The notes under the pieces are model-generated. The model was given only the letters and a program-made list of their open reading frames with translations, did not search any database and was not told the origin of the DNA. DNA of 64,000 nt, from assembly GCF_018987265.1 (NCBI RefSeq), contig NZ_CP076853.1, positions 4,208,501 to 4,272,500 of the forward strand, in the 5' to 3' direction. The position numbers and the translations under genes were made by a program. Of this stretch, positions 11,119-44,384 are shown in pieces; within the stretch, counting starts at the first letter, position 1; the number at the start of each line of letters is the position of its first letter. The stretch is from Rhizobium sp. WYJ-E13 (GTDB lineage: Bacteria; Pseudomonadota; Alphaproteobacteria; Rhizobiales; Rhizobiaceae).

Positions 11119-11147
11119 GCCAATTCTTAAAATTTTATTCACCTTGC

Positions 11148-11170: not shown

Positions 11171-11190
11171 TTGCGTGTGCGGGATATCTG

Positions 11191-11225: not shown

Positions 11226-11232
11226 AGGGGCC

Positions 11233-11583
11233 GTGCCGATCGAACTGACCGCCTCGCAGGCGCTTGGCCTCTGGCACGGTGTCTCGCTCAACCAGGTCCG
11301 TCATGATACGCGCGATTTGACGTTGCGCCAGATGGCGATCCTGCTGCATATCTATCTCGTGCCGCCGCCGCATACGGTGCGCGGGCTGGCCGCGACGCTG
11401 AATGTGACGAAACCGGTCATCACTCGCGCGCTGGATACGATGGGCGAAATGGGCCTCGTCGATCGCGTTCGTGACGATGCCGACCGGCGAAATGTCATCA
11501 TCAAGCGCACCGTCAGCGGTGCGCTCTATCTCGAAAAGCTTGGCGATCTCGTGCGCGAGCAGGGCCGCAAGCTTCCGGTCTGA
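11233..11583 (+). CDS. MarR-type winged-helix transcriptional regulator
   Basis: This short regulator has 116 residues. A winged helix spans about residues 28-95: LTLRQMAILLHIYLVPPPHTVRGLAATLNVTKPVITRALDTM, then a wing with VDRVRDDADRRNVIIK, as in MarR proteins. The start is GTG at 11233, seven bases from GGAGGGG; no ATG fits. The nested palindrome immediately upstream suggests autoregulation. The gene ends 22 bases before the NlpC/P60 gene and probably shares its transcript. The dimerisation helices are short compared with full-length MarR. Confidence 0.8.
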   Translation: MPIELTASQALGLWHGVSLNQVRHDTRDLTLRQMAILLHIYLVPPPHTVRGLAATLNVTKPVITRALDTMGEMGLVDRVRDDADRRNVIIKRTVSGALYLEKLGDLVREQGRKLPV

Positions 11584-11605
11584 AAGGCCATCTGAAAGGA
11601 ATCCC

Positions 11606-12460: not shown

Positions 12461-12468
12461 GATTGCTT

Positions 12469-13857: not shown

Positions 13858-13893
13858 GGTCTGATCTTTCGGGCGGTTTGTCTTGGGAGGACA

Positions 13894-20246: not shown

Positions 20247-23174
20247 TTACCAGCCTTCCCGAAGCACCTTTTCCAGCATGTCGACAAAGAAATCAGCGCT
20301 TTGTTCGGTCAAGCAGAGTGGTGGTTTGATCTTCAACACGTTCAGGTGATCACCCGTCGGCTGCATGACGACGCCGAGTGCCAGCAGCCGGTCGCAGATC
20401 GCTGCCGTCTCTTCGGTCGCCGGCTCCAGCGTCACTCTGTCGCGCACGAATTCGAGGCCGAGATAGAGGCCCATGCCATGCACGGCGCCCACAATCGGAT
20501 AGCTGTCTATGAGTGCCGCCAGACGCGCCTTCAGATGGTCACCCACCTCCCGGGCATTGTCCTGCAGGCGCTCCTCGGCCATCACGTCGAGAACCGTCAT
20601 GCCGGCAACGCAACTGACTGGGCTGCCGCCGGCCGAGGAAAAGAAATAGCCTTCCTTCTCCAGAGAAGCGGCTATCTCTTTCGTCGTGATGACGGCGCCG
20701 AGCGGGTGTCCGTCGCCCATGCCTTTGGCGATGGTGATGATATCGGGCACGACGCCTTGCTGCTCGAAGCCCCAGAAATAGTGGCCGAGCCGCCCATAGC
20801 CCACCTGCACCTCGTCAGCGATGCAGAGGCCGCCGCGTTCGCGCACCTGCCGGTAGACCTCCGTGAGATAGCCGTCGGGCAGTGGGATACCGCCGGCATT
20901 GCCATAGACCGATTCGGCAATGAAACCGGCGAGCCCCTCTCCCTCGGCATCAATGGCCTCTAGCACCGGCATCACGGTGCCGAGATAATCCGCAGTCGAC
21001 TCCGGCCCGCGGAACTGGCCGCGATAGGTGTTGGGCGAAACGACGGCGTGAACCCAGTCCGGCCGTGTCGTCAACGCCTGCGGATTGTCGGCGATGGACG
21101 TGGAGACAGCGTCGCTTGCTACCGACCAGCCGTGATAGCCCTCCAGCAGGCAGAGCATGTTGCGATGGCCGCTATGTGCCCAGGCAAGCCGCAGCGCCAG
21201 GTCGTTGGCTTCCGAGCCGCTGTTGACGAGGAACACGGCATCCATGCCGTCGGGCGCCAGCGACGCGAGGCTCTCGGAGAATTCCGCGACGGCGGCATAA
21301 TGGAAGCGCGAATTGGTGTTCAGCATCAGCCATTGCTGGCCGATCGCTTCCGCCATGCGCGGATGGCCGTGGCCGAGGATCGTGACATTGTTGACCATGT
21401 CGAGATAGGCGCGCCCTTCGACATCGAAAAGATGCTCTTTCCAGCCGCGCTCGATCTGCGGCGGGTGCGCGTAATAATGCTTCTGCGGACTGGCGAAATG
21501 CGCCTGCCGCAGCGCGAAAAGCGCTGCCGTTTCGTGTTTCGGCGCATCGGCGCCCGGCCCGAGCAGCACCGAAGGCGAGGGGCAAAGCGCGGACCACGCC
21601 TCGGCTTGTTGCGGTGTCGAAAAGAGTGGCGGTTCGAAACCGGTGATGCTGCAAAGCTGCAGGCGCAATCCGCCGAGTGAGGACGTCTCGCCGGAGACCG
21701 TGCCGAGCGCCTGACCGGCGGCGACCTCGCTGCCATCTGCGACTGAAAGGTCGATGCCGTCAATGTGCAGCTTCATATCGGCGCCTGTGAGGACCAGATG
21801 CTGGTCGTACCAGGTGATCCGGCCGTCAAAGGGTGCGGCAACGGTGCTGCCCGCCGCAAGGCAGATATCCATATGCAGGGCATAGGTCGCCTGGGCCTTT
21901 GCATGGTGCAGGCTAGTGCGGGACAGGCGATATTCGCCGTAGCGCGTTGCTGCTGCTCCAGTTTCCGCCGCCGCGCGGGCAAGAAGTCGCCAGTCCATGT
22001 CGGCCGTGAGCCAGTTGCCATCAGAAAAATGCGGGCTCTGCACGCCGAGATCGACATAGGCGATGGATTCAGCATCAATCTCCGGCAAGAGCGGCTGCCA
22101 GTCCGCCATATTGGCACCGGTAATATCGAGGCCGGCCGCTTGCAGGATAGCCGCTTCCATCAGCTCGAACGGCACGGACATCGCCGTATCGAAGATGCGC
22201 CGTTCGCCTTCCAGATTTCCTCTGACATAGTCGTTGTCGGGATCGATCGCGATCTGCTGTTCGCTGCTGGCGACGAGGATGACGGCGCGCGCCACGACGA
22301 GCGGCCAGAGTGCCTTCAGCTCTTCCTCGATCAACGGATAAATCTCGTGATAGGCCTTCACCGCGGGCAGGATGTAAAAGGGATCGCCATCTGCCTGATG
22401 CAGCAGCGAGGCGCAGGTCACGGCAAGGTCACCGACCAGCCAGGCGCGGATGATGTCGCCGAAGTCGATCACCCCGTCGGGAACAGGCCGCCCATGCGCA
22501 TCAGGTCGGCTGACGACATTGTCGCCCGTCACGTCGTGATGAACCGCCTGAAGCCGCAGCGACGGCGCAAGAGGCTGGATGCGGCGCACAGCCATGACCA
22601 TTGTCTTGGCGATCCTGTCGCGCGCGACGCTGTCGGTAATGGAGGAAAGCAACTGCACGGCCACGGGTCCGGCGCGGCGCAGATCCCATTGCAGGCCGCG
22701 GTCGAGTCCGGGATGGGTAAAGTCGGCAAGCGCCTCAGCCAGCCGCGCGCAGAGCGCGCCGAGCGCCGCGACCGAGGCGGGCGCCAGATAGGCACGGTGC
22801 GTCAGGCCTTCGCCCTCGAGATATTCCAGCAAGCGGACCTGATAATCCTGCTCACGCACCCTGACGGAAACGATCTCCTTCCCCTCGGTGGAAGCCATCA
22901 CGTTTGGAACACGCGGCGCATTTGCCTTGGCGCGCAAATGATGGATCGCCGCATTCTGTGCTTCGAGCTCTTCGGTCGCATAGGCGGCATGGCAAATTTT
23001 CAGCACATAGCGGCCGTCTTCCGTGTCGAGCCGGTAATTGCGGTCCTGCTGGCTGCCGAGTTCAGACAGCGTGCCGGAAAGCCCGTAATGGGAAAGCAGA
23101 ATATCCGCGGCTTCGGAAGCGGTAATATCGGGGCGCGGCAGCGCCATGCGGTCCACAAGCGCTTCGTCGGTCAT
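20247..23174 (-). CDS. Fusion: APH-like kinase, M23-like domain, class III PLP aminotransferase/phospho-lyase
   Basis: This 975-residue protein has three parts. Residues about 15-330 form an aminoglycoside-phosphotransferase-like kinase with HHDVTGDN and VIDFGD. Residues about 400-530 resemble an M23/hybrid-motif domain ([20 protein letters not shown]), but the usual HxH metal motif is not evident. Residues about 560-975 are a class III aminotransferase with the PLP lysine at about 817 ([14 protein letters not shown]) and DEVQVGYGR. The layout resembles the mammalian pair hydroxylysine kinase and ammoniophospholyase (AGXT2L), so it may phosphorylate an amino alcohol and eliminate phosphate and ammonia. 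The ATG at 23174 follows GGAGGGG. Confidence 0.88.
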
Positions 23175-23286
23175 GGCACCCCTCCGCGGCATGATTCGAT
23201 TACCTAATGAAACAGATAATCAAGCACTTGCCGACAAGCAACGGAAGATTGTGCCAGCCGAGGATTTGGCGGCGTGGGTCCTGAGT

Positions 23287-29607: not shown

Positions 29608-29934
29608 ATGCGGTTCGCTGCGGTTCTCCTGCTATCGCTTGTTGCCGGCGCTTCGGCTGCGCCCGCCTTTGCCATAGACTGGCAGAATTCCGGCAAGCAG
29701 GCTGTGCAGCCGCTCTATCCCTACAAGGATCTTCCGGGCGTGAAGGCGCAACCGGATAAGAAGGTGGAAGAGTCCTACGACTGCCACACCGAAACCGTGC
29801 AGATCCGCCGCCGCTACGACGAGATCTTTCGCTCCGGCGGCATGCCGACCCTGATGTATGTTTGTGAGCGTGACGGTGTCGTGTCTATGGACAGCCGCGT
29901 GCCGCTGCGCGGCCATTACCAGCCGGTGCGGTGA
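29608..29934 (+). CDS. Small secreted hypothetical protein
   Basis: This 108-residue protein has a clear signal peptide (MRFAAVLLLSLVAGASAAPA, cleavage near AFA) and a mature part with two cysteines, C-H-T-E near the middle and VCERDGVV near the end, which could form a disulfide. I do not recognise a family. The ATG at 29608 follows AAAGAGG; a GTG at 29593 would add five residues. It lies 70 bases after the Wzz-like gene, so it may be carried on the same transcript. Confidence 0.7.
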   Translation: MRFAAVLLLSLVAGASAAPAFAIDWQNSGKQAVQPLYPYKDLPGVKAQPDKKVEESYDCHTETVQIRRRYDEIFRSGGMPTLMYVCERDGVVSMDSRVPLRGHYQPVR

Positions 29935-29970
29935 AAGCCGGAGGCGAAGGACGCCACCGGCTCGTTCATT

Positions 29971-31128
29971 TCAAGCATCCAGCCAGACCAGTTCCAGACC
30001 CGGCTTGTGCAGGTATGGCATATTGCCGATTGCAGCGCGTGCTTTCAGGGGGTTGAGGCCGATGAACAGGGCCTCTGCGTCTTCGGCGATTGCCGTCGGT
30101 GCGGTGACCGGGTGGCCGAAATGCGTTGCATTTTGCATGTTCGGGTTCTGATCCAGGAAGGCCGTCACCTCAACGTCTTTGCCGATGCGGCTGAAGATCC
30201 AGCTTCCATAAAAGCCTGCGCCATAGATTGCCGCCTTGCGTCCGCGGAAGTTCGCTGCCTGTTTTTCCAGTCCGTCGGCCGAAGCCCGCCAGAAATCGCA
30301 GATTTCCAGCCCGCGATCGACAGCCTGCCGAACGAGAGTTGCGTCCTGTTCTTCCTTTACAGGCGTTTCGCTGCGCACAGCGACGACGAAGAAAGCGCCC
30401 GGGAAGGATGTCGTGTCGAGCACCGAAACTTCGAAACCGCCAGCGGCAAGGGCTCGACGCAGCGAGGCTTCGCTGAAATGATTGACATGGTCCGCCACCG
30501 TCATATCGCCCGGATTGGCCGAAACGTCAGGCATCGAAAGCAATAGCGTGCCGTGCGGCTTCAGCAGTTTGCGGATGCCGCTGATGAAACCGACGGGATC
30601 GGCCACGTGCTCGATCACGAAATGGCTCATTGCCGCGTCAAAACGGCCCGCCCATTCTTCCGGCGCCTCGTAGGTGGCCTGTGCCTCGGGCGCGATCCAG
30701 CCTTCCCATGCCGGTGCATAGTCGGCGGAAACATCGAAGACATGCGGCTTGATATCGGGCCGGGCAGCAACCACTTTGTGCAGTGTCGTGGCCTTGGCGG
30801 CGCCGTAATCGAGAAGCTTGGCACCCTGAGAAAGAGCGAGCAGATTGCGGGAGATCTCTGCTTGATGATCCGTGCGATAGATTACAGTACCATCTGGTTT
30901 GACCGCAAAGATCTGGTCATGGTCCTCGCTGCTCAGCGAAATACGATAGCCGGTATCGTAGAAGCCTTTGATATCCGGAATTTCATCGCATTGCGCGTGG
31001 CCGCACCCATCGCAGATATAAACGCGGGTCGGAATGTCCAGAAGAGTCATGATGGAAGTAAGGGCAGGCGCCGGCGTTTCATAGGCCGGCGACACAATCT
31101 CCTTGCTGCAAACGCGGCAGGGCGTCAT
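29971..31128 (-). CDS. SAM-dependent C-methyltransferase-like protein with zinc-binding N-terminus
   Basis: This 385-residue protein has an N-terminal CxxC pair (CRVC, then CDGCGH) typical of the zinc-binding part of sugar C-methyltransferases, a central Rossmann methyltransferase fold (LLDYGAAKATTLHKV; MSHFVIEHVADPVGFI) and a C-terminal nucleotide-binding-like domain (KAAIYGAGFYGSWIF). It is the last gene of the deoxysugar operon; its start overlaps the PhyH stop by four bases. The substrate is probably a keto-deoxysugar nucleotide, by analogy with TylC3/NovU-type enzymes. Confidence 0.78.
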   Translation of the reverse strand: MTPCRVCSKEIVSPAYETPAPALTSIMTLLDIPTRVYICDGCGHAQCDEIPDIKGFYDTGYRISLSSEDHDQIFAVKPDGTVIYRTDHQAEISRNLLALSQGAKLLDYGAAKATTLHKVVAARPDIKPHVFDVSADYAPAWEGWIAPEAQATYEAPEEWAGRFDAAMSHFVIEHVADPVGFISGIRKLLKPHGTLLLSMPDVSANPGDMTVADHVNHFSEASLRRALAAGGFEVSVLDTTSFPGAFFVVAVRSETPVKEEQDATLVRQAVDRGLEICDFWRASADGLEKQAANFRGRKAAIYGAGFYGSWIFSRIGKDVEVTAFLDQNPNMQNATHFGHPVTAPTAIAEDAEALFIGLNPLKARAAIGNMPYLHKPGLELVWLDA

Positions 31129-31979
31129 TCGGCTGCCTCGCGCTGTACGGAAAGCTCCGGGAGCACGTCGGCGAACTTAATGCCGGCGGCAAAGGAGCCC
31201 TTCCAGCCGATGCGGATGCCGACCGGCTCAAGATAGTTGAAATAGCGGAACTGGATGCTCCAGCGCGGCGTGGTCGAGACGTTGTGGCCCGACTGATGCA
31301 GCGTCAGGAAGTCCATCAGCACGAGGTCGCCAGGGTTCGTCGGTGGTGCGACATGCTTGTAGCGGGCCAGACGCTCTTCGGCGCGATCGAGATGCAGCGC
31401 GTAAGCGCCCGTCTTGCCGGCGCCGGCATCGTCTTCATAGACCGGAACGAGGCCTTCGGCATGTGAACCGTGGGCGATCTGCACCGGCCCCATGTCCTGC
31501 GTGACCGGCAGAAGAGGTGTCCAGAAGACAACGCCGTCGACACTGCGCAGCTGCGATGGGAATTCCTGATGCCATTGGGCACGGAACTTTTCCTCGCCCG
31601 GATTGTCGATCCGGATACCGTAGCCGCCGGCTGCAATGCCCGGAACACTGTCCGGACGCAGTCCCCTGAAGGCTTCGTCATTGGTTGCGTTGGTAACGAG
31701 CCGCATGAAGGCCGGGATCTGCTTGACGGCGTCATAGACTTCGCCGCCCCATACGCGGTTCTTGGCGATTAGCATCGGATAGGCGATCGTCATCGCCTCA
31801 TGGGTCGTTTCGGTCGGGGCATCGATGCCGTATTTCCTGCAGATCACTTCAAGGATCTGGCGGATGCCTTCCTGGATCGGCGCGATGTCTGCAGCCGGAT
31901 CGTAAAAGCCGCGCATGACGAGATAGCCGTTGCTGTTGAATTCAGCGCGCAGGCCGTCGGTGATCTTTGCGTTGGTCAT
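31125..31979 (-). CDS. Phytanoyl-CoA dioxygenase (PhyH) family oxygenase
   Basis: This 284-residue protein resembles Fe(II)/2-oxoglutarate-dependent PhyH oxygenases: QWHQEFPSQLRSVDGVVFW carries the HxE/D-type iron site, and LVLMDFLTLHQSGHNVS supplies the distal His and its surroundings. In surface-sugar clusters such enzymes hydroxylate a sugar or its acyl group; the substrate here is unknown. It overlaps the downstream methyltransferase and the upstream WbqC-like gene by four bases each. GGAGGAAACGG precedes the ATG at 31979. Confidence 0.8.
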   Translation of the reverse strand: MTNAKITDGLRAEFNSNGYLVMRGFYDPAADIAPIQEGIRQILEVICRKYGIDAPTETTHEAMTIAYPMLIAKNRVWGGEVYDAVKQIPAFMRLVTNATNDEAFRGLRPDSVPGIAAGGYGIRIDNPGEEKFRAQWHQEFPSQLRSVDGVVFWTPLLPVTQDMGPVQIAHGSHAEGLVPVYEDDAGAGKTGAYALHLDRAEERLARYKHVAPPTNPGDLVLMDFLTLHQSGHNVSTTPRWSIQFRYFNYLEPVGIRIGWKGSFAAGIKFADVLPELSVQREAAE

Positions 31980-32701
31980 GATGTTACCGTTTCCTCCTTC
32001 AGGAAGTCTTGCCACGCCACGGTGGCCGGGATGAGACAGCTACGCGCCTCCGGACCCATTCGGGCGATGAGATCGAGTACAGAAACATAAGGGGTGAACG
32101 TGCCGACCGGCTGGGGCCAGGGTGTACGGCTGTAGTTCATATACTCAACCTGCACACCGGCCCGTTCGAAGGCCGCATGGTCGAGATAGTTCGCTGCCCC
32201 GTGACCCGTCAGATAGCGGGTGCCGCTCACCTTCAGCACGATGTCGAGCACGCGCTGCCATGACGTACCTTCGACGCCCATCTCGCTGGTCTTCTCGATC
32301 GTCCGGTTCGCACCGATGCCGAGATAGCGGGCGGGTTCTTCGATACTGGCGATCAGCAGTTCTAGCAGCGAGGAATGACTGTAAACGCTGTCGAATATCG
32401 CAAGCGCATCGTCGATGTAGGGCGCTCCGAGCAGCGATTGGCGCAGCAGAGAACGATGGCTTGCCTTCCAGTCTTCGCCCGCCGCCGTGAGCTCCGAAAT
32501 CATCTGGAAGCTGCCCTTGCCAGCAAGCGGGATCGTCATCCAGCAGCGATCATTACCACGCAGAAGCTGGATGCGGTTCGTGAAGCTGCCCTTCGAGAAC
32601 TGCGTATCATCAAGATAGATATAACAGTCGGCAAGCATCAACTGCTCGAAGAAGCCGGGCCATGGAAACAGCATCGGTTGGGTAATGACAACGGCGGTCA
32701 T
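31976..32701 (-). CDS. WbqC-like family protein
   Basis: This 241-residue protein has the WbqC opening VVITQPMLFPWPGFFEQLMLADCYIYLDD (residues about 4-32), then FSKGSFTNRIQL and WMTIPLAGKG. WbqC-like proteins occur in O-antigen and glycan-modification clusters beside sugar aminotransferases; their reaction has not been firmly established to my knowledge, and acyl/aminoacyl transfer to an amino sugar has been suggested. It overlaps both neighbours by four bases, consistent with coupled translation. Confidence 0.85.
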   Translation of the reverse strand: MTAVVITQPMLFPWPGFFEQLMLADCYIYLDDTQFSKGSFTNRIQLLRGNDRCWMTIPLAGKGSFQMISELTAAGEDWKASHRSLLRQSLLGAPYIDDALAIFDSVYSHSSLLELLIASIEEPARYLGIGANRTIEKTSEMGVEGTSWQRVLDIVLKVSGTRYLTGHGAANYLDHAAFERAGVQVEYMNYSRTPWPQPVGTFTPYVSVLDLIARMGPEARSCLIPATVAWQDFLKEETVTS

Positions 32702-33423
32702 GGGACCAGATACCCCTCAAGAGCTGATCGTGTCTTTTGAAAATCGGAGAATGCCGAGAGGAGAGACGGTGTTTGAATCGCAGGCGCGGCAGACGCCGTA
32801 ACGCGCAGTCCTTCGGACAGGACCACAGTTTCGGAGGCCGGCTTGATGACAAGCAAGTCATTGGCAACAAGATCGATTGCGCAAAGCGTTAGATAGACCT
32901 TGTGTAGAAACGACAATGGCCCAAGTTCGTCGGCAGTGAAGGTTCCGAGCGCGGGCGTTGCAACCTGCGCCACAATGGAGCCGTCGTCGACGCCGGCACT
33001 GACGGCATGCAGTGTCGAACCGATAATCGGAACTGGATACTGCACTGCCTGTTTGAGTGCGTTTATTCCGGCAAAAGCCGGAAGAAGCGACGGGTGCACG
33101 TTCAGCGAAGGGATGACTGAAAAAAGTTCGGCGCTGATAAGCCTTGCGAAGTAGAGGAGGACCAGATCCACGCCGCGTTCCTGGAGAATCGTGCACGCTT
33201 TCCTGCTGAATTGGACGCGATCCTTTTCCTCCAGTCGCTGTCTGTAGACAGATCGGCTGTCGGCTTCGGCTTCTGCGCCGCACGGCCGATCGGTGATCAA
33301 TGTCAGGTCAGCGTAATCGAGAAAGGACGTCCGCACCGCCAGGTCGGCGGCCGTGAAAAACGGCGCCCCACCAGCAGAGCAAATCACACCAATCTTCAGT
33401 CTGCGCTTGTCAGCCACGGACAC
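32698..33423 (-). CDS. Formyltransferase-family protein (possible sugar N-formyltransferase)
   Basis: This 241-residue protein has a GART/Fmt-type formyltransferase core. LNVHPSLLPAFAG carries Asn108 and His110, and AGVDDGSIVAQ matches the later acidic-Gly segment of the family. It lacks the C-terminal domain of methionyl-tRNA formyltransferase and is compact, like sugar N-formyltransferases that act on 4-amino-4,6-dideoxy sugars. Its place between an aminotransferase operon segment and a WbqC-like gene supports that role. It overlaps the upstream CmcI-like gene by 14 bases. Confidence 0.75.
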   Translation of the reverse strand: MSVADKRRLKIGVICSAGGAPFFTAADLAVRTSFLDYADLTLITDRPCGAEAEADSRSVYRQRLEEKDRVQFSRKACTILQERGVDLVLLYFARLISAELFSVIPSLNVHPSLLPAFAGINALKQAVQYPVPIIGSTLHAVSAGVDDGSIVAQVATPALGTFTADELGPLSFLHKVYLTLCAIDLVANDLLVIKPASETVVLSEGLRVTASAAPAIQTPSLLSAFSDFQKTRSALEGYLVP

Positions 33424-34162
33424 ACCTTATGTAACCGCCCGGCGAACTGGAAAGCACCAGCTTGCCGTTCAGCACTTCGTCAGTCTCGAAACGGTCGGTT
33501 TCCTTGAGATAGGCATTGAGCGCCGCGTAAGGCTCGTCGCCCGGATACCAGATCTTCGAGCGCTTTGTCGGCGTCTGCGACATGTCTCCACGGCCGAGCA
33601 GCGTATCGGCGACGACGATATACTGACCTTCGGTAACCAGTGGGCCGTAGCAGCGCAGCTCGTCGAGCACGTGATCGCGGCTGTGGTCGCTGTCGAGAAC
33701 CACCATGACGGAGGCGCCGGCCGGGATTTCGGCCTTCACCTTGGCAAGCGTCTCGACGGTGGTCGACGGTCCCTCGATCAGTGTGATCAACGGCGAAAGC
33801 GGGTGCTTCTCGATGGAATCGCGATTATGGGCGCGGATGTCGATATCGACGCCGATCACTTTGCCCTTGCCGATCACTTTCAGCAACGACGCCATGAAGA
33901 TCATCGAGCCGCCGCGCGCCACTCCGGTTTCGATGATGATGTCGGGCTTGGTATTCCAGATTACTTCCTGGGTGGCCATCACATCGGCCGGCATCTGGAT
34001 GATCGGCACGCCCATCCACGACCAGAGATAGGAGTAATCATATTTGTCGAGTGTCACAATCGTGTTGAGCGCGTGCTGAAAGGCTTCCTCGTCCTTGCCC
34101 AGCGCAAGCGACATTTCGCGCTTGTGGGCTTCGAATTCGAGGCGATCGTCCTTGGTGGTCAT
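33410..34162 (-). CDS. CmcI-family methyltransferase (cephalosporin hydroxylase-like)
   Basis: This 250-residue protein belongs to the CmcI/rhamnosyl O-methyltransferase class. IIIETGVARGGSMIFMASLL is the SAM-binding loop, and VMVVLDSDHSRDHVLDEL and YIVVADTLLG follow. Despite the common name cephalosporin hydroxylase, family members in glycan clusters are O-methyltransferases for sugars. It starts 29 bases after the aminotransferase stop and overlaps the formyltransferase gene. Methylation of a hydroxyl on the same glycan is the likely role. Confidence 0.85.
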   Translation of the reverse strand: MTTKDDRLEFEAHKREMSLALGKDEEAFQHALNTIVTLDKYDYSYLWSWMGVPIIQMPADVMATQEVIWNTKPDIIIETGVARGGSMIFMASLLKVIGKGKVIGVDIDIRAHNRDSIEKHPLSPLITLIEGPSTTVETLAKVKAEIPAGASVMVVLDSDHSRDHVLDELRCYGPLVTEGQYIVVADTLLGRGDMSQTPTKRSKIWYPGDEPYAALNAYLKETDRFETDEVLNGKLVLSSSPGGYIRCVRG

Positions 34163-34191
34163 AACTCTGAAACCTTCTGTCTATTCTGCGC

Positions 34192-35340
34192 TCAGGCCGA
34201 CTGGCGGAGTTGAACGGCGCTATTGTCCTGATGGCTGCGGACGACCGAGATCAGCGTTTCCGCCACGCGCTCGATATCGGCCTCGCTCATGTCATGATAG
34301 CTCGGCAAGTTGATCGCCCGCTCCGGAATGCTCCAGGCGTTGATGTTGGCTGGCTTTTCCTCAAACATCGAAAGGCTGGACAGCGGGTGGAAGAAGACGC
34401 GCGCGTCGATATTGGCGGCTTCGAACGCCTGTTGCAGCACTTCGCGGGTGATGCCGGTGGCGGGGTGGAACACGGCCGTCGGCATCCAGGCGCCGTTGAT
34501 CGTGTCGGTATATTCCGGGTTCATGCTGATGCCGTTGAGCGTCGAGAGACGCACCATATAGGCGGCCAGGATATCCCGCTTGCGGGAAACCAGTTCCTCG
34601 ATTCGCTCCAGCTGGGCGCAGCCGATCGCCGCCTGAATGTTCGACATCTTGTATTTGAAGCCGATCGCATCAGGCCAGAACTGTTTGGTTTGCCCACGCG
34701 CCCGGCCGTGATTGCTGAGCGTCAGTACCTTTTCATGGAGATTGGCATCGCTGGTCACGAACATGCCGCCTTCTCCCGTCGTCAGCGTCTTGGTGCCGTG
34801 GAAGGAGAAGGTGCCGAAAATGCCCATGGAGCCGGCGCGGCGGCCATGCCAGACGGAGCCGATCGCTTCTGCCGCGTCCTCGATAACAGGGATGCCGGTG
34901 CGGCGGCTGATATCGAGCAGCGCATCCATGTCGCAGAGATTGCCGTAGATATGGGTGGCGATGATGGCGCGCGTGCGCGGGGTGATATGGCGCTCGACTT
35001 CGCTCGGGTCGATGCACCAGGTATCGGGCAGCACATCGACGAACACGGGCTCGGCACCCAGATGCTTGATAGGAGCGACGGTCGCGATCCAGTTCGTGTC
35101 GGCGAGGATCACCTCGTCACCGGCGCCGATGCCGAGCGCGGCAAGACCCATATGCATGGCGCCGGTGCAGCTCGATGTCGCGATCGCATGGCTGGTGCCG
35201 AGATAGGCCGCGAATTCCTTCTCAAAACGAATGATATAGTCGTAACAGCGCGCACCCCAGCCGTTCGCTGCAGCATCGGCTGCATAGCTCGTCTCAAGCT
35301 CGGTGATCGACGGTTTGGTGTAGAATATCCTGTTGGTCAT
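34192..35340 (-). CDS. DegT/DnrJ/EryC1/StrS family sugar aminotransferase
   Basis: This 382-residue PLP enzyme transfers an amino group to a keto-sugar nucleotide. Lys184 in FSFHGTKTLTTGEGGM binds PLP, and Glu154-Asp155 in PVIEDAAEAIG lies near the cofactor. A lysine, not histidine, at the active site argues against an RfbH-type 3-dehydrase. It resembles perosamine or viosamine synthases, so a 4-amino-4,6-dideoxyhexose is plausible. AAGG precedes the ATG, and a 110-base gap separates it from the upstream glycosyltransferase gene. Confidence 0.88.
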   Translation of the reverse strand: MTNRIFYTKPSITELETSYAADAAANGWGARCYDYIIRFEKEFAAYLGTSHAIATSSCTGAMHMGLAALGIGAGDEVILADTNWIATVAPIKHLGAEPVFVDVLPDTWCIDPSEVERHITPRTRAIIATHIYGNLCDMDALLDISRRTGIPVIEDAAEAIGSVWHGRRAGSMGIFGTFSFHGTKTLTTGEGGMFVTSDANLHEKVLTLSNHGRARGQTKQFWPDAIGFKYKMSNIQAAIGCAQLERIEELVSRKRDILAAYMVRLSTLNGISMNPEYTDTINGAWMPTAVFHPATGITREVLQQAFEAANIDARVFFHPLSSLSMFEEKPANINAWSIPERAINLPSYHDMSEADIERVAETLISVVRSHQDNSAVQLRQSA

Positions 35341-35450
35341 GCCTTAATTCTTTGTGATGGGGCCTGAGACTCACGAAATCGGGGCACACGGAACTCTGTA
35401 AAAACTAGGGGGTGAAACTGGCGCGAGGCTTTGCAGCGCCGGACGCAACT

Positions 35451-36695
35451 TCAGATGAGCACATGCTGAGTCAGGTCGGTTTCGATGAAGATGAGGTTCG
35501 GCTTGTAGCCGAGCTTGAGGAAATTCTCGCGTCGCGGCATGTCGGCGGCGAAGATCGCGGTCTTCTCCAGACGCGCCGGCTCATGCGTCTGCGGGTCGGC
35601 GACAATCTCGATCTCCGACAGCAGGCCCATGTTCCGCAGCATCTCGCCGATCGATTTCGGATCGGCCATGCCGCTGAGGATGAGCCTGCTGATGCCGGCG
35701 GTCGCGTTGACCTGATAGACGAGCGTCTGGATCGCCACCATCATCGGGAGACTGTGGCGAAGCTCAGCGACTTCAGGATGTTCGCCAAGGCCGCCGAGGG
35801 CCATGCGGGTGTAGAGCTCGTACGCCTTGATGAAATCCTTGCGTGCCACCCAGAAACGAATGGCGACAGAGATGCGGTTCAGCGTGAAGACCTTGCACAT
35901 CTCGTCGTAGATGGCGCGCGCCTCGCGGCTGGTGTTCAGCTTGCCGCGCTTGGCGGCGATATAGAGGAAGTATTCGAGACCACCGCGATACTTGTCCCAT
36001 GAGGTCATCACATCGTCATTGCCGGCCTGCTGGCGTGCCGGCGCGATCTTGGAGACCGCTACCGAGCGATAGAAGGGCTGCTTGAGGAAAGTGACCGCAC
36101 CCTGATCGACGAAATGCGCGAGATAGGAAAAGGCCCAGAAGCAGAAGTCGCGTGGCACCCAGGCGGAGCGCAGGGCAGAGGAGCGATAGATGCCGATCTC
36201 GGGGAAGATGTGTCCGTTAAAGATGAACTGGAAGAGCTCTATGAAATTCTGCTGCGCGAACTTGGTGTTCTCGGCGATATCGTAGAATTGCGAGAGGTCC
36301 CGATCGTGAATTTCATCGTACAGATACCAAGGCGCCTGGCACGCGACGACATCGGGATTGGCGTCCAGATAGGTCATTGCCGCTTCGACGCCGGCAGGCA
36401 CCAGGAAGTCGTCATCGGCAAGGTAGATCGAATATTCGCCGACCGCATGATGGAAGGCGCAGGCAAGGTTCGGTCCCGAGCCGCCGTTGACGGCACGGCG
36501 GTGATAATGGATCGGCAGGCCCCTGGCGATGAATTCCTCGGCAACCTGTGTTGTATTATCCGTCGAGGCGTTGTCGGAGATGACGATCTCGTAGGGGAAG
36601 CTGAAATTATAGGTCGCACAATGCTCCAGCGCGTTTCTGAGATAGGCCTCACGATTGTAGGTCGGAATGCAGATGCTGAGTTTGATGCCGCTCAA
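35451..36695 (-). CDS. Glycosyltransferase family 2
   Basis: This 414-residue protein has a GT-A domain: LSICIPTYNREAYLRNALEH, the SDNASTDNT nucleotide-binding loop and YLADDDFLVP with the metal-binding DxD. The C-terminal 170 residues are helical and of unknown role. It should transfer a nucleotide sugar to the growing surface glycan at the cytoplasmic membrane. It overlaps the rfbC-like gene by four bases and is the only glycosyltransferase in the cluster inside this window. Confidence 0.88.
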   Translation of the reverse strand: MSGIKLSICIPTYNREAYLRNALEHCATYNFSFPYEIVISDNASTDNTTQVAEEFIARGLPIHYHRRAVNGGSGPNLACAFHHAVGEYSIYLADDDFLVPAGVEAAMTYLDANPDVVACQAPWYLYDEIHDRDLSQFYDIAENTKFAQQNFIELFQFIFNGHIFPEIGIYRSSALRSAWVPRDFCFWAFSYLAHFVDQGAVTFLKQPFYRSVAVSKIAPARQQAGNDDVMTSWDKYRGGLEYFLYIAAKRGKLNTSREARAIYDEMCKVFTLNRISVAIRFWVARKDFIKAYELYTRMALGGLGEHPEVAELRHSLPMMVAIQTLVYQVNATAGISRLILSGMADPKSIGEMLRNMGLLSEIEIVADPQTHEPARLEKTAIFAADMPRRENFLKLGYKPNLIFIETDLTQHVLI

Positions 36696-37234
36696 AGGCC
36701 TGTCTCCTGGCTGTAGCTTTCAAGCGCGGCGTCGCGCTCGCTGATGACACCAGGCGTGAAGGGCCAGGCGATGGAAAAGGCGGGATCGTCCCAACGGACG
36801 CCGCGGGCAAGCTCCGGCACATAGACTTCCGACATCTGGTAGAAGAGCTCGCAATCGTCCTCGAGCGTCAGGAAGCCGTGTGCGCAGCCGGCGGGTATGT
36901 AGAAGGCGTTGTACTGCGCTGCGTCGAGTTCAACGGCGGCCCATTTCAGATAGGTCGGCGAATCCTGCCTCAGATCGAGCGCCACGTCGAAGACCCTGCC
37001 GCGCGTTGCGCGCACCAGCTTGATCTCCGGCCGCGGCTCGGCCTGATAGTGCATGCCGCGCAGCGTCCCGCGCTTGTGGTTCTGCGAGACGTTGCATTGC
37101 GGATAGACAGGCACGAGACCGTGGTCGGCGAAACTCTTGGCGTCGAAGGTCCGCGCGAACAGTCCGCGCTCGTCGGAACGCGCGTCGACTTCGACGATAA
37201 AGGCGCCTGAAACCGCGGTCGGGACGAATTTCAT
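36692..37234 (-). CDS. rfbC: RmlC-like 3,5-epimerase (dTDP/CDP-4-keto-6-deoxysugar)
   Basis: This 180-residue cupin-type epimerase has the catalytic His in TLRGMHYQ and the Tyr in FYQMSEVYVPE, with IPAGCAHGFLTLEDD typical of RmlC. The neighbours make CDP-4-keto-6-deoxyglucose, so the natural substrate here is likely the CDP form, or its C-methylated product, rather than dTDP; that is inference from context. It overlaps the C-methyltransferase and glycosyltransferase genes by four bases each. Some relatives epimerise only at C-5 or C-3. Confidence 0.85.
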   Translation of the reverse strand: MKFVPTAVSGAFIVEVDARSDERGLFARTFDAKSFADHGLVPVYPQCNVSQNHKRGTLRGMHYQAEPRPEIKLVRATRGRVFDVALDLRQDSPTYLKWAAVELDAAQYNAFYIPAGCAHGFLTLEDDCELFYQMSEVYVPELARGVRWDDPAFSIAWPFTPGVISERDAALESYSQETGL

Positions 37235-38466
37235 CCGATCACCGTCAGTTCCGGCACGGCGACGGCGAAGCGTCCGCCCCAGTCGCCGACCCGGCTATTG
37301 GCCGCAACGACTTCGTTCTTGATGTTCCAGGGCAGGATGAGGACGTAGTCCGGCCGCGTCTCGTCCATCTTTTCCGGCGCGTAGATCGGCAGTTTGCTAC
37401 CCGGCAGGAAGTGGCCCTGCTTGTGCGGGTTGCGGTCGACGACATAGGCGATGAGGTCGGTGCCGACACCGCAGAAATTCAGGAGCGTATTGCCCTTGGC
37501 GGCGGCCCCGTAAGCGGCGACCGTCTTGCCGTTGCGTTTGGCTTCGGTGAGGAAGGCGAGCAGCCCGTCCTTGATCGGTGCCACGCGGCTCTGAAAGGCC
37601 TCATAGGTTTCGACCTTGTCGAAGCCGGCGGCTGCCTCGTCAATGCGCACCTTGGCGACACCGGGGCCGGTCGGATGAGCGGTAGACGTTGCGCGGCAGG
37701 CGAGCACGCGCAGGCTGCCGCCATGCGTTGGCAGCTCTTCCACGTCGAACACCTTGAGGCCGTGTGCCCCAAAGACCTTTTCGACTGCGAGCAGCGACAG
37801 GTAGTAGAAATGCTCGTGATAAACAGTGTCGAACTGAATGTTCTCCATCAGCCGCAGCAGATGCGGGAATTCGACGCTGACGACGCCGTCAGTCTTCAGC
37901 ACGCCAGAGAGCCCGCCGACGAAATCGTTGATGTCAGGGACATGCGCCAGCACGTTGTTGCCGATGACGATATCGGCAGCAAGGCCGCGGGAGACGAGAT
38001 CGGCAGCCGTCTCCTTGCCGAAGAAGCGCGCTTCCGTCGGCACCCCGATCTGCCGCGCCACCTCGGCGACGTTTTCGGCCGGCTCGATGCCGAGCACCGG
38101 CACACCGGCCTCGACGAAATGCTTCAGCAGGTAGCCGTCATTGCTCGCCACCTCGATGACCTGCGATGTCTCGTTGAGGCCGAAGCGCTTGCGTGCCATG
38201 ATGGTGAACTGGCGGGCGTGCTCCACCCAGCTGTCGCTGTAGGAAGAGAAATAGGCGTAGTGGCTGAAGATGTCCTCAGGCGGCACGAAGGCATCGGCCT
38301 GCACCAGCCAGCAATCGGAGCAGACGAAGGCGCGTAGCGGATAGGACGGCTCCGGCTGCTCGAGCTGCTCTTCCGTCAGATAGGCGTTGGCAAGCGGCGT
38401 CGAGCCGAGGTCGACGAAGCGATGATTTAACGGAGCGCCGCAGAACCGGCAATTATGCGCTGTCAT
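37231..38466 (-). CDS. Sugar C-methyltransferase (TylC3/NovU type)
   Basis: This 411-residue enzyme has all three parts of sugar C-methyltransferases: an N-terminal zinc-binding domain (CRFC, then CSDC), a SAM-binding core (VIEVASNDGYLLKHF and VIGNNVLAHVPDIN) and a C-terminal domain (VAAYGAAAKGNTLLNFCG). FDTVYHEHFYYLSL holds the conserved Tyr-His-Glu-His active-site residues. It adds a methyl carbon to C-3 or C-5 of a 4-keto sugar nucleotide, giving a branched sugar. It lies between rfbG and rfbC with four-base overlaps. Confidence 0.9.
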   Translation of the reverse strand: MTAHNCRFCGAPLNHRFVDLGSTPLANAYLTEEQLEQPEPSYPLRAFVCSDCWLVQADAFVPPEDIFSHYAYFSSYSDSWVEHARQFTIMARKRFGLNETSQVIEVASNDGYLLKHFVEAGVPVLGIEPAENVAEVARQIGVPTEARFFGKETAADLVSRGLAADIVIGNNVLAHVPDINDFVGGLSGVLKTDGVVSVEFPHLLRLMENIQFDTVYHEHFYYLSLLAVEKVFGAHGLKVFDVEELPTHGGSLRVLACRATSTAHPTGPGVAKVRIDEAAAGFDKVETYEAFQSRVAPIKDGLLAFLTEAKRNGKTVAAYGAAAKGNTLLNFCGVGTDLIAYVVDRNPHKQGHFLPGSKLPIYAPEKMDETRPDYVLILPWNIKNEVVAANSRVGDWGGRFAVAVPELTVIG

Positions 38467-39527
38467 GATATTGCTTCCTCATAGGCCGCGATCTGGCTGA
38501 GCGAGAAGGCGCGCATGTCGGCTCCTTCGCGGTTGGCCTTGTACCAGGCGGCTGTCCAGTCGATTGTCTGTTGCAGGCTCAGGCGCGGGCGCCAGCCGAT
38601 GGCGGAAAGCGCCAAGGCCGAGCTCAATGTCAGAGCAGGCGCCTCCGGCAGATGCGTTCCGGGCGCCTGCTTCCAGACGTCGTTGACGCCATGGGCAAGG
38701 CCGAGCGCATCGGCGAGTTCGCAGACGGTTGCGAAACTCTGCGGGTCCGGGCCGAAATTGAGCGCCTCGGGCAACTCCTTTTCATCCGAAAGCGTCAGCG
38801 CTTCGGCGAAGGCGAGATAACCGCCGAGGGGCTCAAGCACATGCTGCCAGGGACGGATCGCTTGCGGGTAACGAAGCAGGATCGGCTGGTGGCTCTCGAA
38901 AGCGCGGATGAAATCGGGGATCAGCCGATCCCTGGACCAGTCGCCGCCGCCGATAACGTTGCCGGCGCGCACGGTCGCAACGCTGATGTTGCGCCCCTTG
39001 AAGAAGCTGTCGCGATAGCTCTGAACGACGAGTTCGGTGCAGGCCTTGGAATTGGAATAGGGGTCCTTGCCGCCGAGCGTATCGCTTTCGATAAAGGGAA
39101 CACCGCTGCCGTTGTTGGCATAGACCTTGTCGGAGGTGACGACGAGAACCGTTCGAACCGAAGGTGCCTCGCGCACCGCATCGAGGACGTTAGCGGTTCC
39201 CATCACATTGGTTGCGAAGGTCTCGGTCGGATTTTCATAGGAGCGTCGCACCAGCGCTTGCGCTGCCATGTGGATGACGATTTCGGGCTCGAAATCGGTG
39301 AGGCGCTGCTTGAACGCGGCTGCATCCCTGATGTCGGCGATGTGGTGACCCTGCCCGTTCCAGGGGGAAAGCCGCGCATAAAGAGAGGGACTGGTCTCGG
39401 GTTCGAGCGAGACCGCCGCCACCTCCGCGCCGAGCTTTTCCAGCCACAGCGAAAGCCAGGATCCCTTGAACCCCGTATGTCCCGTCAGGAACACACGTCT
39501 GCCATTCCAGAAGTCCGTCAGGCCCAT
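38463..39527 (-). CDS. rfbG: CDP-glucose 4,6-dehydratase
   Basis: This 354-residue short-chain dehydrogenase makes CDP-4-keto-6-deoxyglucose from CDP-glucose. [13 protein letters not shown] binds [14 protein letters not shown] holds the catalytic Thr/Ser-Asp-Lys region and [13 protein letters not shown] the Tyr-type/Lys site in its RfbG form. The frame is open 103 codons upstream, but the real start is the ATG at 39527 after GTGGAAGAT, overlapping the rfbF end by ten bases. It acts directly after RfbF. Confidence 0.92.
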
Positions 39528-40291
39528 ATCTTCCACGGCGCCTTTCCGGAGCTCCAGAGCTCTTCGAGCTGGTTGCGCTCGCGTAGCGTATCCATCGGCT
39601 GCCAGAAGCCGTCGTGGCGGAAGGCGGCCAGTTGCTTGTTGGATGTCAGCCACTGCATCGGGCCGGCTTCCCAGATCGTGTCGTCGCCTTCGATGAGGTC
39701 GATGACGGAAGGATGCAGCACGAAGAAGCCGCCATTGATGCGCTGGCCGTCGCCCTTCGGCTTTTCGATGAAGGCGGTCACGACATCGTTTTCGATATTC
39801 GTCGCGCCGAAACGGCCAGGCGGCGTCACCGCGCACATCGTCGCTTTCAGGCCGTGGCTGCGATGGAAGGCGATCTCCGAGGTGATGTCGATATCGGCGA
39901 CACCGTCGCCATAGGTCAAGCAGAAGGGCTCGTCGGGGTTCAGATGCTCGCGGACGCGCCGGATACGGCCGCCCGTCATCGAGTTCATGCCGGTATCGAC
40001 GATAGTCACCTTCCAGCTGGGCTTCGAACCCTTGTGATATTCGATCGCGTTGGTGGCGAGGTCGACGGTGATGTCGCTGTGATGCAGGAACAGGTTTACG
40101 AAATATTCCTTGAGCATGTAGCCCTTATAGCCGGCGCAGATGATGAAATCATTCAAGCCGTGATGGGCGTAGATGTTCATGATATGCCAGAGGATCGGCT
40201 TTTCTCCGATCTCGACCAGAGGCTTAGGCCGCACGCTGGTCTCTTCGGCGAGGCGCGAACCCAGACCACCTGCCAGAATTACGACTTTCAT
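39518..40291 (-). CDS. rfbF: Glucose-1-phosphate cytidylyltransferase
   Basis: This 257-residue nucleotidyltransferase makes CDP-glucose from CTP and glucose 1-phosphate. The N-terminal [20 protein letters not shown] is the nucleotide-binding loop with the catalytic Arg/Lys, and [10 protein letters not shown] carries the metal-binding Asp. It is the first gene of the - strand deoxysugar operon, so its promoter should lie in the interval 40292-40613, where I see only weak -35/-10 matches. Confidence 0.94.
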
Positions 40292-40613
40292 CCCAAGCGA
40301 ACTCCAAAGTGTCTGATAACATCCATTGCCGCCGGCATGCGCCTGGCGAATATGTCCGGTATGCGGGCAACGATCTCCACGGAGCGGAACGGCAGTAACT
40401 TCATCGTGATGCCGGTATCCGATTTCGTTCTTGTGCGAGGCTTGCCTTAGCCAAGGCGAAAATAACCATCAGCCGGGTGGTATCTGCCCGCCCGCTGAGT
40501 GGTTTGCCCGATAGTCTCTTGGAATTATTTGCTATTTTGCAACGCCCTGCATCGGCGCTGCATGCCTATGATTTTTGAGGGGTAAGAAAAGCGCTCTGCA
40601 GGGAATGAGGCGA
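40292..40613. other. Upstream region of the deoxysugar operon
   Basis: This interval of about 320 bases has no convincing gene. Reading on the - strand, TTGCAA near 40540 is a possible -35, but no good -10 is correctly spaced, so the promoter of rfbF is not resolved. The half nearest 40500-40600 is richer in A/T than the genes on either side. Confidence 0.45.
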
Positions 40614-40766
40614 TCAGAGAATCCGGTCGATCTTATGCTGGATATGCAGGTTGGGCATCAAACCAGCCGTATGGGCGGCGCGATAGGCGTTGCGCGCAGC
40701 ATCGAACGTCACGCCCCACATGATGGCGCTCAGAAGAAAAGCGATGATGTAGACCTGGATCCGCAT
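40614..40766 (-). CDS. Possible 50-residue single-span membrane protein
   Basis: The frame begins MRIQVYIIAFLLSAIMWGV and continues with a basic-polar tail DAARNAYRAAHTAGLMPNL and about 12 more residues. One membrane helix at about 3-20 is clear. An ATG at 40787 would add seven residues. Neither start has a clear ribosome site, and the gene lies just downstream of tRNA-Leu on the same strand. No family is recognised. Confidence 0.42.
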   Translation of the reverse strand: MRIQVYIIAFLLSAIMWGVTFDAARNAYRAAHTAGLMPNLHIQHKIDRIL

Positions 40767-40880
40767 AGCGCCATGGAAATGGAGCATGGTGGCATTAGTG
40801 TGGCGATGCTGAAGGGAGCCCGCACAGGGGCGAATTCTCGACAGAAGATATTGTGAAACAAGCTCTTTCGAGAAAGGAAA

Positions 40881-40965
40881 TGGTGCCCAGAAGAGGACTC
40901 GAACCTCCACGCCTCGCGGCACAGGTACCTGAAACCTGCGCGTCTACCAATTCCGCCATCTGGGC
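40881..40965 (-). tRNA. tRNA-Leu (anticodon CAG)
   Basis: Read on the - strand, the gene begins GCCCAGATGGCGGAATTGGT and ends TCTGGGCACCA. The acceptor stem GCCCAGA pairs with TCTGGGC, the anticodon loop TTCAGGT gives CAG, the long variable arm is typical of tRNA-Leu, and GGTTCGAGTCC is the T arm. The CCA end is encoded (40881-40883). It reads CUG, the most used leucine codon in this DNA. Confidence 0.96.
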
Positions 40966-43147: not shown

Positions 43148-44224
43148 TCAGAGTCGCGCTTCCAGCACGAGGTTGAACGGCGTTGCCATCGCCCGGCGGA
43201 ACCGCGTGAAACCGGCCTTCCGGAAGATTTCGGCCAACCTTTTCTCGCCGGCCTGTGCGCCAAGCACGATATGGCCGCCGTCAGAAATCGCATGAGCGCA
43301 GCAGATCGTCGTCGAGGCAGCATAATACATGCGCGCGACCGGCGAGATACTGTCGTCCACGCCATCCTTCGCATAGGGCTCGACCAGCATCACTGTACCG
43401 TTGCGGGCGATGGTTCTGGCCGCGTGTTTCGCGACGGCGAGCGGATCGCCCATGTCGCGCAGGCAATCGAAGAAGCAGATGAGATCGTAATCCGAGCCGG
43501 AATAGGCGTCCGCCCGCGCCGTCTCGAATGTGACCCTCTCTGTTCCGCCCGCCGTAGCAACAACCTGCCGGGCCTCATCGAGCGATTCCTGATGAGAATC
43601 GAAACCACGGAAGCGCGATGACGGAAAGGCCTCGGCCATCAATGCCGTTGAATGACCGTGGCCGCAGCCGACATCGGCGACCAGAGCGCCAGCCTTCAGT
43701 TTCTCGATGACGCCATCGAGAGCCGGCAGCCATTCGGCGACAAGGCTTGCCTTGTAGGCATTGCGGTAGAGCGATGCCACGCCGCAATAGAGCCTGCCGT
43801 CATGATCGCCCCAGGGAATGCCGGCGCCCGTGCGGAAGGCATCCAGCGCCTTGTCCTCATCAGCCCACATTGAAGCCGGAATTGCCCAGGCCGCAGCCAT
43901 GAAGACCGGGCTGTCGTCCTGCGCCAGCACCAGCGCATGCTCTGCCGGCAGTTCATAGCTGTGGCTTGCCGCATCATAGATCACATAGCCCCCTGCCACC
44001 TGCGAACCCAGCCATTCGCGGATATACCGTTCCGCACAGCCGGTGATGGCCGCAAGTTGGTGCGAACTGATCCGCCCGGCCTTCGCCATCGCTTTATAGA
44101 GGCCGAGCCGGTGGCCGATGCTCACCATCACGCCGCCATAGCCGGCCGAGAGGTCGCCGATTGCCCGCGAGACGATGAGATCGAGTTTGGCCGCATCTAT
44201 AGTGTTGTTTTTTATCTGGTCCAT
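43148..44224 (-). CDS. Class I SAM-dependent methyltransferase with winged-helix N-terminus
   Basis: This 358-residue protein has an N-terminal winged-helix dimerisation domain (GLYKAMAKAGRISSHQLAAI; ERYIREWLGSQVAGGYV) and a C-terminal methyltransferase core with VADVGCGHGHSTALMAEAFP and YDLICFFDCLRDMGDP. The layout resembles plant-type O-methyltransferases and the bacterial Rv2258c-like group. AGGAGAAGGAA precedes the ATG at 44224. It is divergent from the GlxA-type regulator, which may control it. The substrate is unknown. Confidence 0.85.
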   Translation of the reverse strand: MDQIKNNTIDAAKLDLIVSRAIGDLSAGYGGVMVSIGHRLGLYKAMAKAGRISSHQLAAITGCAERYIREWLGSQVAGGYVIYDAASHSYELPAEHALVLAQDDSPVFMAAAWAIPASMWADEDKALDAFRTGAGIPWGDHDGRLYCGVASLYRNAYKASLVAEWLPALDGVIEKLKAGALVADVGCGHGHSTALMAEAFPSSRFRGFDSHQESLDEARQVVATAGGTERVTFETARADAYSGSDYDLICFFDCLRDMGDPLAVAKHAARTIARNGTVMLVEPYAKDGVDDSISPVARMYYAASTTICCAHAISDGGHIVLGAQAGEKRLAEIFRKAGFTRFRRAMATPFNLVLEARL

Positions 44225-44384
44225 TTCCTTCTCCTGTCGAAACATTCAGAATGGAAATGGAATGACAGCGGCGGGGGCCTTGTGGCAGAGCGGCATGAGC
44301 CAGAAGCGGGCCATTTGCGCCAATCGTTGCGCCGGTGTAGGCAAAAGAGACGAATAGCGCGGCTGTTCCTTCCGGAGGGATGAG

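Follow-up and report, generated by a model that had tools for sequence, protein, structure and literature searches.

Kansosamine is a 4-amino, 3-C-methyl, 2-O-methyl, 6-deoxy sugar whose N-acyl group is methoxypropionyl. CDP-vinelose of Azotobacter vinelandii, on which a search of open-access papers found none, is a 3-C-methyl, 2-O-methyl, 6-deoxy L-sugar linked to cytidine diphosphate (CDP). One review describes 3-C-methyl sugars as quite rare (PMC9912281), D-evalose and 3-C-methyl-D-mannose are named among them (PMC12961483), 3-C-methyl-D-rhamnose is reported from the lipopolysaccharide of Phyllobacterium trifolii (in a work cited in PMC5644692), and the virenose of Coxiella is modelled with thymidine or guanosine diphosphate (TDP or GDP) routes (PMC3539893). 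Mycobacterium kansasii makes N-acyl kansosamine in its lipooligosaccharide, and Table 1 of one paper lists for the cluster a glucose-1-phosphate cytidylyltransferase, an epimerase/dehydratase, a rhamnose epimerase and a methyltransferase (PMC4403928); these genes presumably make the kansosamine. How does a rhizobial cluster with similar enzymes compare? The operon considered here lies at positions 29971-40291 of a 64,000-nucleotide stretch (the window) of Rhizobium sp. WYJ-E13, contig NZ_CP076853.1, in a genome of 6.9 Mb and 3 contigs that belongs to a family of at least 109 genera. Over 60% of their length, the first 15 kb of the second replicon match plasmids of Rhizobium leguminosarum and its relatives at 90%, which makes a Rhizobium-like bacterium of soil or nodules likely. 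We hold, with somewhat better than even confidence, that it builds and transfers one unusual CDP-activated sugar. The predicted product is a CDP-activated 3-C-methyl, 4-formamido, probably 2-O-methyl 4,6-dideoxyhexose, altered further by a PhyH-type oxygenase and a second zinc-type methyltransferase. With the 3-C-methyl, 4-formamido and 2-O-methyl groups, its residue would be C9H15NO4 (201.100 Da), rising to 217.095 with an added oxygen and to 231.111 with an added methyl as well; N-formyl together with O-methyl is isobaric with N-acetyl together with a hydroxyl. Loci and genomes are cited below by our own L and G handles.

Eleven consecutive open reading frames (ORFs) on the minus strand make up the operon. 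Families were assigned via Pfam and NCBIfam, and all named Pfam families, as well as RfbF, RfbG and RmlC, exceed their curated cut-offs. MT23 is the short name used here for the Methyltransf_23 protein, the last operon gene. In transcription order the genes are:

39518..40291, minus strand: RfbF, glucose-1-phosphate cytidylyltransferase (TIGR02623, 424.5 bits, cut-off 300.25)
38463..39527, minus strand: RfbG, CDP-glucose 4,6-dehydratase, 354 aa (TIGR02622, 444.6 bits, cut-off 278.45)
37231..38466, minus strand: sugar 3-C-methyltransferase of NovU/TcaB9/mycarose type (PF08421 and PF08484, Methyltransf_13/14)
36692..37234, minus strand: RmlC-like 3,5-epimerase (TIGR01221, 166.1 bits, cut-off 155.75)
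35451..36695, minus strand: GT2 glycosyltransferase (PF00535, 90.4 bits)
34192..35340, minus strand: DegT-family sugar aminotransferase (PF01041, 410 bits; pyridoxal phosphate (PLP) lysine Lys184)
33410..34162, minus strand: CmcI/rhamnosyl-O-methyltransferase family protein (PF04989, 228.7 bits)
32698..33423, minus strand: PurN-like formyltransferase of a rare subfamily (PF00551, Formyl_trans_N, 69.1 bits)
31976..32701, minus strand: WbqC-family protein (PF08889, 196.3 bits, gathering score 21.3)
31125..31979, minus strand: PhyH-type Fe(II)/2-oxoglutarate oxygenase, from the inner ATG; the ORF extends to 32015 (PF05721, 56.6 bits)
29971..31128, minus strand: zinc-type MT23 (PF13489, 55.1 bits)

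The initial annotation had described eleven minus-strand genes running from rfbF to a zinc-type methyltransferase, and the ORF list, Pfam and NCBIfam bear this out. The families it named for ten of them were confirmed; the GT2 glycosyltransferase at 35451-36695 it had left unnamed. Its statement that nearly all the genes overlap by 4-14 bases is true of seven of the ten junctions, or of eight if PhyH starts at the inner ATG at 31979, where the overlap with WbqC shrinks from the 40 bases given by the listed GTG start to 4. It fails at the other two, where gaps of 110 bases (GT2-DegT) and 29 bases (DegT-CmcI) occur. The start of RfbG was revised to 39527, from 39836 in the long ORF. Promoter and terminator scans found no more than in shuffled sequence, and the repeats examined resemble chance matches.

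How could these enzymes act together? RfbF and RfbG would convert glucose-1-phosphate to CDP-4-keto-6-deoxyglucose, the C-methyltransferase would place a methyl group on C3, and the RmlC-like enzyme would epimerise C5, possibly also C3, to give an L-sugar. DegT would then aminate C4, the PurN-like enzyme would add a formyl group to the new amine, and the CmcI-type enzyme would O-methylate the ring, most simply at C2. PhyH and then MT23 would act as a pair, hydroxylating and then methylating, while WbqC would serve some step close to the amino group. Lastly, GT2 would transfer the completed sugar from CDP onto a surface glycan that genes elsewhere produce. The family chemistry of these enzymes is established, and for the cytidylyl transfer, the 4,6-dehydration, the C-methyltransferase, the epimerase, the aminotransferase and the formyltransferase the assignment is supported by family and motif. 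The substrates, the order of the steps, the ring positions and the roles of PhyH, MT23 and WbqC are proposals.

For the first two enzymes the initial annotation had claimed formation of CDP-4-keto-6-deoxyglucose, and this is supported, both genes scoring over their equivalog cut-offs; use of CDP-sugars by the enzymes is predicted. The C-methyltransferase has the features of its family: a zinc domain, an S-adenosylmethionine domain, a C-terminal domain and the Y-H-E-H motif. Its best solved relative is the D-mycarose 3-C-methyltransferase 4rv9 (E 3e-81), and the motif Y216-H-E218-H219 is common to both. In RmlC enzymes a histidine, a lysine, a tyrosine and an aspartate are catalytic; here H62, K72, Y132 and D168 align with those of a solved RmlC and are kept in all nine loci aligned. 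Epimerisation at C5, possibly also C3, would give an L-sugar. The best solved relative of DegT is perosamine synthetase 3bn1 (E 4e-77), and alignment with it places the PLP lysine at Lys184, which vindicates the earlier claim of an aminotransferase with a true PLP lysine. Pfam and NCBIfam reveal no 4-ketoreductase among the eleven genes, as expected if the 4-keto group is aminated. A route to 3,6-dideoxyhexoses was considered and rejected: RfbH is a 3-dehydrase that lacks the PLP lysine, DegT has it, and the score against the RfbH model NF011936 is 171.3 bits, with a cut-off of 423. Of note, C-methyltransferase homologues at E 1e-90 occur in 90 of 397 genomes of the order, and C-methyl CDP-sugars may therefore be common in it, as judged from gene content. 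An RfbF-RfbG-C-methyltransferase trio lies on a plasmid of Sinorhizobium meliloti GR4 (L238, 6157-9227), and a plasmid search with the C-methyltransferase gave matches in 58 Sinorhizobium records of 161.

What does the formyltransferase act on? The catalytic residues of formyltransferases are an asparagine, a histidine and an aspartate, and N108, H110 and D146 are invariant in all 15 aligned rows. Known sugar N-formyltransferases are of FMT/ArnA type. The NCBIfam models give 65.7 bits for PurN, 30.0 for fmt and 21.7 for ArnA, the first below the PurN equivalog cut-off of 150.1 bits. Of the solved structures, 23 match at E 0.001, each of them a glycinamide ribonucleotide (GAR) formyltransferase or a formyl-tetrahydrofolate deformylase. 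The PurN loop G-x-G-S-N is missing in 15 of 15 rows and present in another PurN-like gene of the same genome (L234). The subfamily is rare: apart from the window's own genome, only two of 246 sampled genomes of the family have a homologue that stands out (G046 at 147 bits and G216 at 112; the next match scores 70), and a class-wide sample of 385 genomes gave no second close one (338 bits for the window's own, 111 for the next). A search of public genomes anchored on this protein used a very general pattern, and absence there means little. Among 188 loci examined, those of the same genome aside, only L029, L030 and L010 hold several operon genes above the general level, L188 showing three weak matches, and viral sequences added no further locus with several operon genes among the matches listed. 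Tentatively, and with a little less than even confidence, we suggest that the enzyme represents a PurN-derived family of sugar N-formyltransferases that arose apart from FMT/ArnA, that WbqC, PhyH and MT23 carry out tailoring without a described counterpart, and that the product is a new class of sugar found in rhizobia and gammaproteobacteria.

The initial annotation had named a search for the gene set in other genomes as a check, and this found ten of the eleven genes together in other bacteria. In the gammaproteobacterium Rheinheimera sp. D18 (L029) all but GT2 are contiguous and reordered: RfbF, RfbG, RmlC, C-methyltransferase, DegT, PhyH, MT23, formyltransferase, WbqC, CmcI. The same ten lie within ~12 kb in G216, from another genus of the Rhizobiaceae, in a third order and with two genes on the other strand. 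G046 has PhyH, MT23, formyltransferase, WbqC and CmcI as a five-gene run, with RfbF, RfbG, RmlC, C-methyltransferase and DegT ~340 kb away, and a metagenome contig (L030) that breaks off inside WbqC carries the start of that gene together with RfbF, RfbG, C-methyltransferase, RmlC and formyltransferase. Because ten of the eleven genes recur together elsewhere, their grouping is more than chance, and the pathway is real, recurring and probably functional. In Rheinheimera the cassette has NeuB-type and CMP-sugar-type cytidylyltransferase genes at a distance of a few kb (L029, 16483-19259), possibly a sign that a flagellin or capsule glycan is made in that strain. A plasmid of Peteryoungia desertarenae (L237) holds two CDP-C-methyl-sugar clusters back to back (3590-15018), one with GT2 and the other with DegT, a PerB-like acetyltransferase and CmcI; PhyH, MT23 and a close WbqC are missing from that second cluster, for which a 4-acetamido-3-C-methyl-2-O-methyl sugar would be predicted. 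The operon's first five genes stand in the same order in L237 at 51-67% identity (GT2 51%), RfbF being annotated 27 residues shorter.

The strongest pointer to the substrate comes from what takes the formyltransferase's place. A search for WbqC in 397 genomes of the order at E 1e-40 found ten places in nine genomes, the window included. Two of them, L214 and L215, seemingly Hyphomicrobium-type loci, share with the window, at 60-85% identity, the order GT2-DegT-CmcI-X-WbqC-PhyH-MT23 (GT2, in the same place, 63%), and X, exactly where the formyltransferase would be, is a GNAT acetyltransferase. Homologous GNATs adjoin WbqC in L216-L219 and stand two genes off in L221, which makes seven GNAT loci in total. 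Altogether, 14 WbqC-bearing loci, counting the window, include five with a close formyltransferase, seven with a GNAT, two with neither (L220 and L222) and none with both. In L237 an acetyltransferase sits between CmcI and a DegT 72% identical to the window's; it belongs to the NeuD/PglB/VioB family (177.1 bits, cut-off 160.8), with perosamine N-acetyltransferase as the closest relative of solved structure. For perosamine, experiments have shown that an acetyltransferase can take over from the formyltransferase (PMC5981137). When CmcI, WbqC, PhyH and MT23 of eight loci are combined in one tree, the window and G216 fall beside L214 and L215, which are GNAT loci. G046 and Rheinheimera (whose row was flagged for unusual letter composition) fall beside L221, also a GNAT locus. 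Two formyl/GNAT changes are needed, and a single formyl clade is rejected (approximately unbiased test, AU p 4e-80). The tree of WbqC by itself has few supported branches and needs three changes; the DegT tree unites the window with L214 and L215. Three unrelated families of N-acyltransferase thus stand beside one kind of aminotransferase, a pattern best explained by one DegT-made amine that receives formyl in some loci and acetyl in others; the exchange between loci would place the formyl group on the new amine. It would also be a case of natural exchange of three unrelated N-acyltransferase families within one kind of pathway.

Several observations weigh against this pathway or narrow its support. 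DegT passes no NCBIfam equivalog cut-off, so that amination at C4 is argued from the 4-keto substrate and the nearest relative. The formyltransferase is PurN-like and not of FMT/ArnA type, and its substrate is therefore deduced solely from the company the gene keeps. The parts given to PhyH, MT23 and WbqC are likewise suggestions from sequence. Only the window and L214/L215 show the exchange at exactly one position: the acyltransferase gene is next to different genes of the cluster in L221, L029, G046 and G216, and in L237 it stands on the other side of CmcI, with WbqC missing. L216-L221 (six loci, five with a GNAT) have DegT proteins of a separate clade, which share 46-49% identity with that of the window, and their amine could differ accordingly. 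The exclusivity is imperfect, given that L220 and L222 have neither acyltransferase, and in L216, one of the GNAT loci, a generic formyltransferase-like match (E 9e-7, 31% over 119 aa) lies ~8 kb away from WbqC. The loci are also partly non-independent, L214 and L215 coming from one genus and L216-L218 from another. Of the two loci without either gene, L222 is the second WbqC locus of G773, with a WbqC 40% identical and a partial GT2 match.

The CmcI-type protein belongs to PF04989, matches solved CmcI 2bm8 at E 1e-7 and misses the rhamnosyl O-methyltransferase equivalog NF045824 (102.2 bits, where 400 are needed); it is best read as a sugar O-methyltransferase, most simply at C2, since homologues stand beside C-methyl sugar genes in G128 and L237. 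Residues of the H/E/H and R type are the iron and 2-oxoglutarate ligands of the PhyH family, and H137-Q-E139, H228 and R245 are invariant in eight of eight loci. The four zinc-type cysteines C4, C7, C39 and C42 are invariant in 11 of 11 rows, eight of MT23 and three of C-methyltransferases; MT23 is a distant paralogue of the C-methyltransferase. Leaving out L030, whose contig ends in WbqC, 13 loci are not cut by a contig end: eight have both PhyH and MT23 and five lack both, and the two are read as a later pair because they are jointly present or jointly missing. CmcI is present in the same eight. For WbqC no credible solved relative was found, a profile search of solved structures giving FAM83B at E 0.027, which was treated as chance, and no paper on its function appeared among the open-access matches listed. 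Neither the class sample of 385 genomes, which held no second WbqC at E 1e-45, nor the plasmid collection, which held no WbqC, PhyH, MT23 or formyltransferase at 60% identity or above, added to these. The earlier proposal of a branched, amino-substituted, formylated and perhaps hydroxylated sugar is supported for C-methylation, amination and formylation of the amine, through the families and the other loci, and hydroxylation keeps its 'perhaps'.

Could the tail genes have a product of their own? WbqC, PhyH and MT23, perhaps with the formyltransferase and CmcI, might build an acyl or amino-acid-like substituent that WbqC joins to the amine of a kansosamine-like sugar. The five-gene run of G046, set ~340 kb from the sugar genes, would suit such an arrangement, as would the methoxypropionyl group of N-acyl kansosamine and the position of WbqC near DegT in L216-L218 and L220, where PhyH, MT23 and CmcI are missing. 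We consider it unlikely: Pfam and NCBIfam show neither an acyl-activating enzyme nor a carrier protein in the operon, and ordinary N-acyltransferase families are present where the formyltransferase is missing.

Less probable again, and in our view improbable, is that the product is a known sugar of vinelose or kansosamine type and that PhyH, WbqC and MT23 serve an unrelated glycan. The sugar genes can indeed stand without the others. G128, of the same genus, has RmlC, CmcI, RfbF, RfbG and C-methyltransferase next to lepA (L212, 2974-11334) with no DegT, WbqC, PhyH or formyltransferase, possibly a vinelose-type cluster, and the set in L237 has DegT and an acetyltransferase without PhyH, WbqC or MT23. 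Against a mere coincidence of two glycans, the genes remain together despite reordering, and the C-methyltransferase (E 1e-90) is commoner in WbqC-bearing genomes of the order (8/9) than in the others (82/388; Fisher p 4e-5). With one genome per genus and the window's own genome (G000) left out, the figures are 4/5 and 82/388 (p 0.009); the sole WbqC-bearing genome without the C-methyltransferase, G752, is 88% complete and has a contig ending in RfbG. Amination at C3, on the carbon that bears the methyl group as in vancosamine, would suit a C-methyltransferase of the TcaB9 family and is very improbable, as Pfam and NCBIfam detect no 2,3-dehydratase among the eleven genes and the nearest solved relative of DegT, perosamine synthetase, works at C4; a vancosamine-type sugar was set aside for these reasons.

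The operon was probably acquired recently. Two features define the site:

29933..40867, strand not assigned: the operon and ~0.6 kb, with no counterpart in the congeners G029 and G194 (flanks align at 76-79%)
40881..40965, minus strand: tRNA-Leu(CAG) bordering the insertion (Rfam tRNA at 40884-40965)

The stretch beside tRNA-Leu(CAG), window positions 29933-40881, is a variable site among congeners. In G029 and G194 the left flank of the operon and the right flank from the tRNA gene are conserved, with 1.3 and 0.9 kb between them; G128 has 3.1 kb, G999 has 12.4 kb that include a phage-type integrase beside the tRNA, and G1010 has ~18 kb of other genes. The five congener stretches (L229-L233) gave no match to an operon gene at E 1e-4 save a weak RfbG-like one in L230, and the C-methyl sugar genes of G128 are on another contig than its tRNA-Leu site. 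Absence of the operon from the site in five congeners points to a recent gain beside the tRNA gene, as is probable from these comparisons. By gene order the operon is a mosaic, probably inserted as a unit: its first five genes are ordered as in L237 and its last seven, the acyltransferase aside, as in L214/L215, the two halves sharing GT2. Integration by duplication of the tRNA site was considered and is unproven, as the left border shows no repeat of the tRNA 3' end, and Pfam and NCBIfam no integrase among the eleven genes. The site adjoins genes for a chain-length protein, an acyltransferase and a protein with eight hydrophobic stretches, which resemble genes for surface polysaccharide; rhizobial surface glycans matter for symbiosis and phage contact. 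Elsewhere in the window, a 981-residue protein with APH phosphotransferase and class-III aminotransferase domains is encoded at 20247-23192 (minus strand) and a methyltransferase with an Rv2258c-like winged-helix domain at 43148-44245 (minus strand).

The initial annotation knew of no described sugar that uses this exact gene set. The open-access literature does not contradict this, the matches listed describing neither the gene combination nor a formamido C-methyl sugar, and two close products can be named, N-acyl kansosamine and CDP-vinelose. By gene set the former, from M. kansasii, would be the nearest described product: the predicted set agrees with it in the 3-C-methyl, 4-N-acyl, 2-O-methyl and 6-deoxy features, on the window's side from genes alone, and differs in the acyl group, methoxypropionyl there and predicted formyl here. 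Vinelose carries a hydroxyl at C4, where the window's sugar would have an acylated amine, and the G128 cluster would fit it. The CDP-3,6-dideoxyhexose and yersiniose pathways have RfbF and RfbG in common with the operon, whereas the operon has no RfbH-type 3-dehydrase. The operon suggests that the CDP branch of deoxysugar synthesis leads to C-methyl aminosugars besides 3,6-dideoxyhexoses. For a branched, formylated aminosugar the operon thus offers a testable pathway, and for the WbqC family a functional setting. The perosamine pathway starts from GDP-mannose and adds no C-methyl branch. It resembles the proposed one in amination at C4 followed by N-acylation, with perosamine synthetase as the nearest solved relative of DegT, a perosamine-N-acetyltransferase-like protein in L237 and an amine on which acetyl can replace formyl (PMC5981137).

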